Translations under genes and position numbers: made by a program
Notes under the pieces: model-generated
The model's database searches: none
The model's input: the letters and a program-made list of their open reading frames with translations, nothing else
Told to the model about the DNA's origin: nothing
Shown here: positions 3,546-8,098 of the stretch, piece after piece
Position numbering within the stretch: the stretch's first letter is position 1
Layout of the letters: every line of letters starts with the position of its first letter
Origin: a virus
Length of the DNA stretch: 25,560 nt
Reading direction: 5' to 3' (one strand)
Virus record (IMG/VR): IMGVR_UViG_3300006810_000342
Span: 1-25,560 of that record

Positions 3546-3635
3546 ATGCCATACGGACAAGGAACATACGGATCAAAAGTAGGAAGACCAACTAAACCTA
3601 AACCTAAACCAAAACCTAAACCAAAAAATAAATAA
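3546..3635 (+). CDS. 29-residue Lys-Pro repeat protein
   Basis: A 29-codon gene: MPYGQGTYGSKVGRPTK followed by repeated Lys-Pro pairs and NK. AGGA lies a few bases before the ATG. The opening YG-GTYGSKVGRP resembles very short proteins next to podovirus portal genes; from memory these are common but uncharacterised. The strong positive charge and lack of hydrophobic residues suggest an unfolded nucleic-acid- or protein-binding peptide. It lies in a run of three small genes ahead of the portal and is too short for usual gene finders. Confidence 0.6.
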   Translation: MPYGQGTYGSKVGRPTKPKPKPKPKPKNK

Positions 3636-3636
3636 T

Positions 3637-3759
3637 ATGGCTTACACTAAAAATTCTTTGGTTAAAAATATTAACGCTAGAAAAGCTGCTGGCACTTCCA
3701 GACCAAAATCTAAATCTACAGTTTCTAAAAAAGCTTATGCTCAAATGAAAACTGGATGA
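3637..3759 (+). CDS. 40-residue basic protein just upstream of, and in frame with, the portal
   Basis: A 40-codon frame starting one base after the preceding stop (TAATATG): MAYTKNSLVKNINARKAAG, then a Ser/Lys-rich tail ending KAYAQMKTG and TGA. It is basic and polar, with the look of similar tiny phage genes. The TGA (3757-3759) is in the same frame as the portal ATG at 3772, and the four intervening codons (KKNN) contain no stop, so readthrough would fuse it to the portal. No function is known to me. Confidence 0.55.
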   Translation: MAYTKNSLVKNINARKAAGTSRPKSKSTVSKKAYAQMKTG

Positions 3760-5656: not shown

Positions 5657-6488
5657 AACATTAAGTAACGAAATAGATAAATCTTTTGAAAATGAAACAG
5701 CAATAACTCCTACCAGTTCTGGAACAGTTTTAGGAGCAACTAATGATAATGGAGATTGGAAATCATCATTACCAGATGAACTTAAAAATGATGCTACTTT
5801 ACAAAATTTTAAAGATGTTGAAAGTCTTGCTAAAACAGTAGTACATCAACAAAAAGTATTAGGTAGTAGAATACCAATACCTAAAACAGATGAAGAAAAA
5901 TCTGAATTGTATAGTAAATTAGGCAGACCAGAAAATTCTGAACAATATGAAATTAATATACCAGATACTCATAAATCTTATTTTCAAGATGATGATGTTA
6001 AACAATTTAAAAATGTAGCACATCAAATTGGTTTAAATAACGATCAAGTAAAAGCAATAATGGATTTTCAAATGAAATCTATTGACAATCAACTTTCTAC
6101 TGAACCAAGTAAAGTTGCAGTACAAAGAGAAGAAACAGAAAATACTTTAAAAAAAGAATGGGGCTATGAATATGATAAAAATGTAAGAGCCGCACAAAGA
6201 GCATTAGATGTTTATGGTGATGATGAAATTAGAGAATTAATGAATACGGAAGCTGGTAACAATCCTGCTGTAGTAAAAATGTTTGCTAGATTAGGTGCAG
6301 AAGTAACAGAAGATATGGCTAAAAATACACAACATAATACTTTAGCTACTTCACCGTTAGATGCACAAGCTGAAATAGATGCAATATTTAATAATCCAGA
6401 TGACCCTTATCACGATCAATCTCATAGAGAAAATTCACAAAGAGTTGAATATATGCGTCAACTACATGAGAAAAGATTTGGCAAATAA
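5646..6488 (+). CDS. Capsid assembly scaffolding protein
   Basis: 280 residues, acidic and helical, comparable to T7 gp9 (307 aa). It would template the procapsid and leave before DNA enters. Supporting features are an N-terminal disordered part, DWKSSLPDELKNDATLQNFK and DVESLAKTVVHQQKVLGSRI (typical of podovirus scaffolds), a central helical region, and a basic C-terminus EYMRQLHEKRFGK suited to binding the capsid protein. AAGGA precedes the ATG, inside the preceding gene. It directly precedes the capsid gene, as expected. The capsid promoter overlaps its last codons (6478-6488). Confidence 0.88.
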   Translation: MSNETLSNEIDKSFENETAITPTSSGTVLGATNDNGDWKSSLPDELKNDATLQNFKDVESLAKTVVHQQKVLGSRIPIPKTDEEKSELYSKLGRPENSEQYEINIPDTHKSYFQDDDVKQFKNVAHQIGLNNDQVKAIMDFQMKSIDNQLSTEPSKVAVQREETENTLKKEWGYEYDKNVRAAQRALDVYGDDEIRELMNTEAGNNPAVVKMFARLGAEVTEDMAKNTQHNTLATSPLDAQAEIDAIFNNPDDPYHDQSHRENSQRVEYMRQLHEKRFGK

Positions 6489-6507
6489 GTTAAATTTGTG
6501 TTATACT
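6478..6507 (+). promoter_or_regulatory. Strong extended -10 promoter for the capsid genes
   Basis: TTGGCA (6478-6483, 5 of 6 to TTGACA), an 18-base spacer, and TATACT (6502-6507, 5 of 6 to TATAAT) with an extended -10 TG one base upstream (6499-6500, TGTTATACT). It overlaps the end of the scaffold gene. The expected start is about 6511-6515, exactly where the predicted closing stem of the leader RNA begins. A host-sigma promoter dedicated to the capsid gene fits the need for much capsid protein. Confidence 0.65.
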
Positions 6508-6511
6508 AACA

Positions 6512-6691
6512 AAATCTAATTCGCCCTTTTTAGGAAAACGAAGAAGTAGCCATGATTGGCTTTAAACTTCCGATATGATCGTATCGTTTACGATAAGGTT
6601 TCCCGCAAGGATAAAGACCGATTTATGGAATATGGATTAATAATTTTTATTACTCCCCCTATTTCTAACTTTTAAATAAGGACTAAAACAA
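6512..6691 (+). ncRNA. Structured 5' leader RNA of the major capsid gene
   Basis: This 180-base non-coding stretch lies between a strong promoter and the capsid ATG. By hand pairing: P1 6512-6516/6620-6624 (AAATC/GATTT) closes a multiloop; P2 6520-6523/6539-6542 (TTCG/CGAA), extendable by TTTT/AAAA with a CCC bulge; P3 6543-6547/6566-6570 (GAAGT/ACTTC) stacked on 6548-6552/6557-6561 (AGCCA/TGGCT) with loop TGAT; P4 6578-6583/6589-6594 (ATCGTA/TACGAT), or the exclusive alternative 6571-6575/6582-6586 (CGATA/TATCG); P5 6597-6599/6617-6619 (GGT/ACC) with an inner 6600-6603/6609-6613 helix. A further hairpin at 6658-6681 covers the ribosome binding site AAGGA (6678-6682). It could be a cis-regulatory leader or a separate small RNA. 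No known class is recognised and no folding program was run. Confidence 0.5.
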
Positions 6692-7552
6692 ATGTCAACA
6701 CAAATAACAACAGCTTTTGTAGAACAATACAAGAGTAACGTGTTTCATTTGGCTCAACAAAAAGGTTCTAGATTAAGAAGTGCGGTTAAAACTGAAACAG
6801 TAACAGGAAAATCACATTTTTTTGAAAGAATTGGGTCAACTGCGGCACAATTAAGAACAAGCAGACATTCTGATACTCCGAGAGTAGATACTCCCCATAG
6901 TAGAAGAAAAGTTACAATGAACGATTACGATTGGGCAGATTTGATTGACCAAGAAGATAAAGTAAGAATGCTTATATCTCCACAATCTGAATATGCACAA
7001 GCGGGTGCTTTCGCAATGGGCAGAGCAATGGATGACGCAATTATTGCGGCAGCTACAGGCAATGCACTTGGCGGAGTAGCAGGTGGAACAACAATTGCTC
7101 TACCAGCAGCACAAAAAGTTGTTCATGGTTCAGCTGGATTATCAGTAGCAAAATTAATTTCTGCTAAAGAAATTTTAGATGCGGCTGAAACTGATCCAGA
7201 CGAACAAAAATTTGTTGTATGTACAGCAGGTCAAATTTCTGATTTGCTAGCAATTACTCAAATTACTTCTGCTGATTTTAATTCAGTAAAAGCGTTAGTA
7301 CAAGGTCAAATTGACACTTTCATGGGTTTCAAGTTTATCAGAACTGAAAGACTAGGAACAGATGCAGATGGCAATAGAGCAGTATTAGCATTCAATCAAT
7401 CAGCATTAGGTCTTGCTGTTGGATCAGATATATCAACAAAGATATCTGAAAGAGCAGATAAGAACTATGCAACACAAGTATTTTTATCCATGACTATCGG
7501 AGCTACGAGAGTAGAAGACGAAAAAATGGTTGAAATTGCTTGTACAGAGTAA
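6692..7552 (+). CDS. Major capsid protein
   Basis: 286 residues, HK97-fold type by family pattern rather than T7 gp10 (345 aa). The N-terminal segment FVEQYKSNVFHLAQQKGSRL, then FERIGSTAAQLRTSRHSDTP, a WADLIDQEDK segment and AFAMGRAMDDAIIAAATGNA are typical of capsid proteins from marine podoviruses with this gene order. The C-terminal part carries GFKFIRTERLGTD and a late VEDEKMVEIAC strand. It builds the icosahedral head on the scaffold encoded just upstream. AAGGA sits nine bases before the ATG. It has its own promoter and structured leader and, with the next gene, ends in a terminator, so expression can be set apart from the rest of the late genes. Confidence 0.9.
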   Translation: MSTQITTAFVEQYKSNVFHLAQQKGSRLRSAVKTETVTGKSHFFERIGSTAAQLRTSRHSDTPRVDTPHSRRKVTMNDYDWADLIDQEDKVRMLISPQSEYAQAGAFAMGRAMDDAIIAAATGNALGGVAGGTTIALPAAQKVVHGSAGLSVAKLISAKEILDAAETDPDEQKFVVCTAGQISDLLAITQITSADFNSVKALVQGQIDTFMGFKFIRTERLGTDADGNRAVLAFNQSALGLAVGSDISTKISERADKNYATQVFLSMTIGATRVEDEKMVEIACTE

Positions 7553-8073: not shown

Positions 8074-8098
8074 GGGGCGATTTATACTCGCCCCTTTT
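8074..8098 (+). terminator. Intrinsic terminator closing the capsid unit
   Basis: A 7-bp GC-rich stem GGGGCGA (8074-8080) and TCGCCCC (8088-8094) with a 7-base loop, followed by TTTT (8095-8098). It stands 15 bases after the stop of the decoration gene and is the only clear rho-independent terminator I see in the window. The T-tract is short, so some readthrough into the tail genes is likely, and no promoter is evident between it and 8119. Confidence 0.85.

Follow-up and report, generated by a model that had tools for sequence, protein, structure and literature searches.

The major capsid gene in the window, that is, the whole 25,560-base stretch of DNA analyzed here, is preceded by a folded RNA that we propose to represent a new family of cis-acting, pseudoknotted 5′ leaders of capsid mRNA, which would be read by a protein and would set the stability or the translation of the message; we give this reading a probability of about one half. 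As defined by comparison of sequences, the family (type I) is placed before the capsid gene and combines hairpin H1, a pseudoknotted hairpin H2 and a hairpin H4, the CC...GG-ANAA motif being present twice, and the leader in the window qualifies as a member. Within this proposal, we infer the capsid mRNA as the target in cis, the reading of the loops by a protein and the outcome.

The window is part of the genome of a podovirus-like pelagiphage, which we take to be an ocean virus infecting SAR11 bacteria, and its genes include those for a terminase, a head-tail adaptor, a scaffold/protease, the major capsid protein and tail proteins. It is related to Pelagibacter phage EXVC032P Baldr, the closest isolate (capsid identity 82%). 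The locus tags of the GenBank records for Baldr and Hodr (L233, OQ414636.1; L100, OQ414635.1) look swapped, the Baldr record carrying EXVC031PHodr tags and the Hodr record EXVC032PBaldr tags. A tiny reading frame between the packaging and portal genes of the window (around 3546-3637) ends in repeated Lys-Pro (KPKPKPKPKNK).

Table 1 Features of the capsid leader and its surroundings, in window coordinates
Feature	Position	Strand	Description
Promoter	6478..6507	+	TTGGCA - 18 nt - TATACT, extended -10 TG (6499-6500); start site inferred
Basal helix P1a of hairpin 1	6514..6547 (about 6514-6517 with 6544-6547)	+	UACC/GGUA in relatives; weak in the window
Hairpin H1	6520..6542	+	UUCG/CGAA stem; C-CC...GG-ANAA internal-loop motif (6524-6526, 6533-6538)
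Hairpin H2 (pseudoknot stem 1)	6548..6561	+	AGCC/GGCU; loop 6552-6557; covarying
Pseudoknot stem 2	6554..6570	+	G6554-C6570, A6555-U6569 (H2 loop with bases before CG)
Hairpin H3	6578..6594	+	AUCGU/ACGAU, conserved CGU in loop; missing in some relatives
Hairpin H4	6597..6619	+	GGUUU/ARRCC stem, second CC...GG-ANAA copy; most conserved part
Hairpin H5	6627..6665	+	GGAAUA/UAUUYY, asymmetric loop, variable upper stem; only in long-linker leaders
A+U-rich linker	6666..6691	+	UUAA-type repeats, Shine-Dalgarno AAGGA (6678-6682); read from sequence
Major capsid protein gene	6692..7552	+	PHROG 3437 major head protein, E 6.5e-94; directly 3′ of the leader RNA
Terminator-like hairpin	8074..8098	+	GGGGCGA...UCGCCCC-UUUU; 3′ of the capsid gene and of the gene that follows it

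Occurrence of the leader and its link to the capsid gene

A first-pass annotation of the window had drawn four adjacent hairpins by hand, using nearly all bases from 6520 to 6619, and comparison bears them out: they covary and recur in about 50 distinct viral leaders, 28-79 nt 5′ of the major capsid gene. For this comparison 80 capsid-linked loci were collected. A separate pattern scan for the H4 motif, blind to the capsid gene, returned at least 120 stretches, at least 110 of them lying 28-79 nt upstream of a capsid gene; among the matches listed, one (L133) has the complete structure but reaches the end of its contig, and nine fall in unrelated, GC-rich coding sequence. Applied to 84,980 cellular species, the scan yielded coding coincidences and one phage contig binned in a Verrucomicrobia MAG only, with no cellular homologue. 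A contig binned in a Verrucomicrobia MAG (TMED56), L230 (NHDJ01000148.1), bears both leader and capsid gene and is probably a pelagiphage contig misbinned with the bacterium.

The covariance model finds a single copy in the window and a single copy in the complete Baldr genome, and Baldr was also the sole match to the window leader in a sequence search of 50,697 phage records (77% identity). Rfam 15 gave no match in the window at the gathering threshold, a permissive scan returning chance-level matches far below it, in keeping with the earlier impression that the fold belongs to no known class, and no published description of the leader RNA was found among open-licence papers.

Covariation and folding energy

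On comparative sequence evidence, the core fold is real. RNAalifold, run on a plain MAFFT alignment, recovered H2, H3 and H4 with compensatory changes. In an alignment of 50 distinct sequences fitted to the covariance model (A3), 96.8% of stem cells are paired and 19 of the 26 pairs have compensatory changes on both sides; none of 500 shuffles matched any of the measures, and shifting the partners by one base lowered pairing to 43-46%. Individual pairs were scored with a custom G-test against a phylogenetic null that re-places the changes of each column on the tree. Under this null, four pairs of A3 reach E ≤ 0.05, all of them structural, with H1 and H3 contributing two each, and only one of the eight best-scoring pairs falls outside the structure, while the plain MAFFT alignment yields two pairs at E ≤ 0.05, again both structural. 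Covariation among related capsid leaders, which the first-pass annotation had named as a check on its fold, is present. Model-fitted alignments are biased towards the structure, a bias partly offset by alignment A1 and by the anchored pseudoknot test described below. The count of G-U pairs is 75 against 5 for A-C, an excess indicating that selection acts on the plus-strand RNA, and an element acting at the DNA level was rejected on the same count.

Folding energy, likewise named there, gave a divided answer. Positions 6511-6657 fold at -33.3 kcal/mol as against -25.2 kcal/mol for shuffled sequence (z = -2.32; 5 of 200 shuffles equally good), but across the family the mean z is only -0.97. Because, in addition, the single-sequence minimum for the window is a fold other than the comparative one, we rest the proof on covariation and not on energy.

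Helices, loops and the pseudoknot

Comparison added three elements to those already annotated, namely a pseudoknot, hairpin H5 and an internal-loop motif that occurs twice, and removed two. The stem once thought to close the whole fold (6512-6516/6620-6624) has 48% of its cells paired and is complete in just 2 of 40 relatives; its 5′ strand pairs in relatives with the 3′ flank of H1 instead. This helix, P1a, has changes on both sides in all three of its pairs, with 93.3% of cells paired and E = 0.087 for pair 4-45 under the phylogenetic null. A two-state switch between mutually exclusive stems likewise did not survive, as the stem 6571-6586 is fully formed in two of the nine relatives with letters there, whereas 6578-6594, which is H3, is paired in 96% of cells. 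The leader had also been called more GC-rich than nearby coding DNA; its GC content of about 0.39 does exceed that of the upstream gene (about 0.25-0.33) but not that of the early capsid gene (0.36-0.46).

In A3, pairs 12-36 (E = 0.013) and 13-35 (E < 0.007) of H1 are significant, and GGANAA occupies invariant positions in this hairpin. Pair 67-76 of H2 is significant also in the plain MAFFT alignment (E = 0.007), and pairs 83-101 and 85-100 of H3 reach E ≤ 0.007 in A3, where 98.1% of the cells of this hairpin are paired. H4 is nearly invariant (AGGUUUCCC...GGA-AAA..CCG), and the support for its pairing consists of the replacement of the outer G-C pair by A-U in one sequence together with G-U exchanges. 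Hairpins with the CC...GG-ANAA motif occur in the window at H1 and H4 only, where 0.25 would be expected by chance, and this doubling of a motif absent from the rest of the window points to a repeated recognition site. A GGANAA hairpin at Baldr 35784 was set aside, since it lies inside the helicase gene and is likely due to chance. In H5, 99.3% of cells are paired (16 sequences) and three pairs have changed on both sides. Folds of the linker in relatives contain no conserved hairpin covering the Shine-Dalgarno sequence; conserved sequestration of this site was considered and rejected, the site being partially paired in whole-leader folds but without a conserved partner in the linker folds.

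The H-type pseudoknot is formed by bases 3 and 4 of the H2 loop, which pair with the two linker bases preceding "CG". With U[GA]N of the H2 loop and [CU]CG of the linker as anchors, base 4 of the loop pairs in 42 of 42 sequences (A-U 33, U-A 6, G-C 2, C-G 1), against a mean of 28.7 in shuffled data, where none of 2000 shuffles reached 42. On a tree built without the columns concerned, this A-U position has undergone five changes, each of them two-sided. The neighboring pair is G-C in 36 cases, G-U in 3 and A-U in 3. In the window, the pseudoknot has two certain base pairs only (A6555-U6569 and G6554-C6570). A kissing contact between the H2 and H3 loops (RUG/CGU) was rejected, as the change of the H2-loop G to A in L111, L121 and L184 goes unmatched in H3; its counterpart is instead a C-to-U change in the strand that forms the pseudoknot.

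Leaders of other pelagiphage groups

Comparison of sequences indicates that a structured capsid leader is kept in at least three groups of abundant SAR11 phages, and the leader RNA may extend beyond pelagiphages. The HTVC028P-type (type II) leaders consist of a hairpin, a four-pair H-type pseudoknot and a GAU-CC...GG-NNA-AUC hairpin; 99.3% of the cells of the pseudoknot are paired, and pair 56-68 has E = 0.033. The HTVC010P-type leaders have comparable hairpins, with 95.8% of cells paired and double changes in 15 of 26 pairs, and the loop of their second hairpin covaries with a downstream base (pair 61-73, E < 0.007; C-G or A-C only), possibly through a non-Watson-Crick or base-triple contact between columns 61 and 73 of this alignment (A6). 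At the corresponding site before the capsid gene, both groups have a loop contact or a pseudoknot and, after it, a hairpin resembling CC...GG-ANAA.

The covariance model of the window-type leader does not match HTVC028P- or HTVC010P-type leaders. The second hairpin of two window-type leaders, L006 and L008, is nearly identical to that of the HTVC010P type (in L008, AGUCUAACAGACUUUAAAUG), which suggests common descent, and homology between the leader types is likely. Type II leaders overlap the end of an upstream frame and, as read from the sequence, no clear promoter adjoins them. The geometry of the 5′ end seen in the window is therefore not universal, and this arrangement speaks for a leader that acts on capsid mRNA rather than one bound to a promoter.

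Promoter and transcription unit

The promoter upstream of the leader is the strongest promoter-like plus-strand site in the window. The earlier prediction that transcription starts at the 5′ edge of the fold, made from the extended -10 element (6499-6507), holds up as a predicted start: in 42 of 53 leaders, the distance from the end of an extended -10 (TGNTATAAT-like) to the first helix is exactly 5 nt, although the surrounding sequences differ. A T7-type RNA polymerase was not detected in Baldr, HTVC010P or HTVC028P, the HTVC019P control being positive, so that these genes are probably transcribed by the host polymerase.

No terminator was found within the window leader. The terminator-like hairpin after the capsid region is kept in relatives in position and not in sequence, hairpins of other sequence lying about 490-580 nt past the capsid gene in many of them (46 of 159 loci under a strict rule). 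The hairpin at 8074-8098 is a strong GC-rich inverted repeat that could be used as a terminator on both strands.

Proposed function and alternative explanations

In the mechanism that we propose, a sigma-70 promoter of host type, lying within the 3′ end of the scaffold/protease gene, would give rise to a transcript whose first bases belong to the fold, and H1, the H2 pseudoknot, the optional H3, H4 and, in the window subgroup, H5 would form during transcription. H1 and H4 would present the same asymmetric internal loop (CC...GG-ANAA), and the invariant unpaired loop bases would most likely be the binding site of an RNA-binding protein of the phage or the host. Binding would set the lifetime of the capsid message or its rate of translation, acting via the A+U-rich linker to the Shine-Dalgarno sequence, and we favor protection or activation, or else a titratable repression, over a metabolite switch. 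This agrees with one of the functions first suggested for the fold, a capsid-level control element of no known class, the option that survives for a covarying RNA that is without a match in Rfam and always lies directly 5′ of the capsid gene. A bolder version, rather unlikely, is that the leader is a widespread pseudoknotted operator by which a tailed phage would monitor one of its structural proteins, the capsid or the scaffold protein, and tune capsid translation; this would be the tailed-phage counterpart, across the dominant SAR11 phages, of the coat-protein operators of RNA phages.

The protein-read leader has to be weighed against a passive 5′ stabilizer or translation enhancer like the T7 gene 10 leader or the ompA 5′ stem, in which a buried 5′ end would resist decay and no specific ligand would be involved. 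The start of the structure at the predicted transcription start, the order promoter-leader-capsid-terminator-tail tube, which resembles phi10-gene 10-Tphi of T7, and the lack of a conserved shut-off device all speak for such a stabilizer, but the invariant unpaired bases (GGANAA twice, the CGU loop, CCG) and the pseudoknot exceed the needs of simple stability, and the type II leaders have no adjacent promoter; we consider it somewhat unlikely. The combination of a folded RNA at the 5′ end of a transcript, host polymerase and a terminator-like hairpin downstream would also suit a put-like antiterminator, in which the emerging RNA would attach to RNA polymerase and take it past the post-capsid terminator into the tail genes; HK022 putL, with its two stem-loops, lies just 3′ of its promoter (PMC9378689). 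The resemblance is positional only, however, types II and III have no clear tie to a neighboring promoter, and every occurrence of the single-copy element among the matches listed is at the capsid gene, with none elsewhere in the genome, which makes antitermination improbable.

Two further functions raised by the first-pass annotation found no support. The compact pseudoknot of the leader and its strongly conserved unpaired bases would befit a riboswitch sensing a metabolite or an ion, but the capsid gene would be the sole regulated gene, with no metabolic gene in evidence, and there is neither a match in Rfam nor a conserved terminator, anti-Shine-Dalgarno or other Shine-Dalgarno-blocking hairpin, and therefore no standard riboswitch platform; we regard sensing of this kind as very improbable. 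The slimmest chance falls to processing of the capsid transcript into a small trans-acting RNA or a packaging RNA. A stable fold behind the window's best promoter would yield much RNA, yet no terminator follows the core, the element never occurs apart from the capsid gene among the matches listed, and the linker, though variable in length, always leads into the capsid start.

Comparison with known systems

The closest worked-out precedent is the leader of T4 gene 32, in which an H-type pseudoknot lies about 67 nt before the start, and the RNA from there to the ribosome site is rich in A+U and contains UUAA(A) repeats (PMC3014915). Types I and II share with it an H-type pseudoknot in an mRNA leader, and the window leader also has an A+U-rich linker with UUAA-type repeats. 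The T4 leader controls a single-stranded DNA-binding protein, whereas that of the window precedes a major capsid gene (PHROG 3437), and window-type leaders have three or four further hairpins and a reader protein that is putative only.

In T7, the gene 10 cassette runs phi10, leader, gene 10 and Tphi, with its own promoter after the scaffold gene and the tail tube genes following. The window resembles it in having a structured leader at the predicted start of the capsid promoter and a terminator-like hairpin after the capsid region, but the T7 cassette depends on the phage's own polymerase and has just a simple stem, in contrast to the host-type promoter and conserved pseudoknotted fold found here. 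The put RNA of HK022 likewise folds as it is transcribed, near a phage promoter that the host polymerase uses (PMC9378689); it differs in having two stems, in occurring in two copies (putL, putR) at early promoters and in acting on the polymerase, whereas the window leader is single-copy and capsid-linked. The marine manA, wcaG and PhotoRC-II RNAs are structured RNAs upstream of phage genes that were found by comparative genomics (PMC2864571). They precede other genes and have other structures, and the Rfam scan, which included these families, gave no match.

Few marine viruses are as abundant as pelagiphages, and no report of post-transcriptional control of their gene output was found in the open-licence literature searched. 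A capsid-linked pseudoknotted RNA in at least three pelagiphage groups, outside Rfam, would be a concrete and testable control point and one of few examples of a tailed phage whose capsid message is controlled by a folded leader; the isolates Baldr, HTVC010P and HTVC028P, which grow on HTCC1062, are in hand. Several hairpin-like repeats stand before the capsid gene of a freshwater relative, L099 (MW202510.1; capsid 43% identical), and L098 (MW202572.1) has a CCCGCAAGGACAA hairpin just before its capsid gene.
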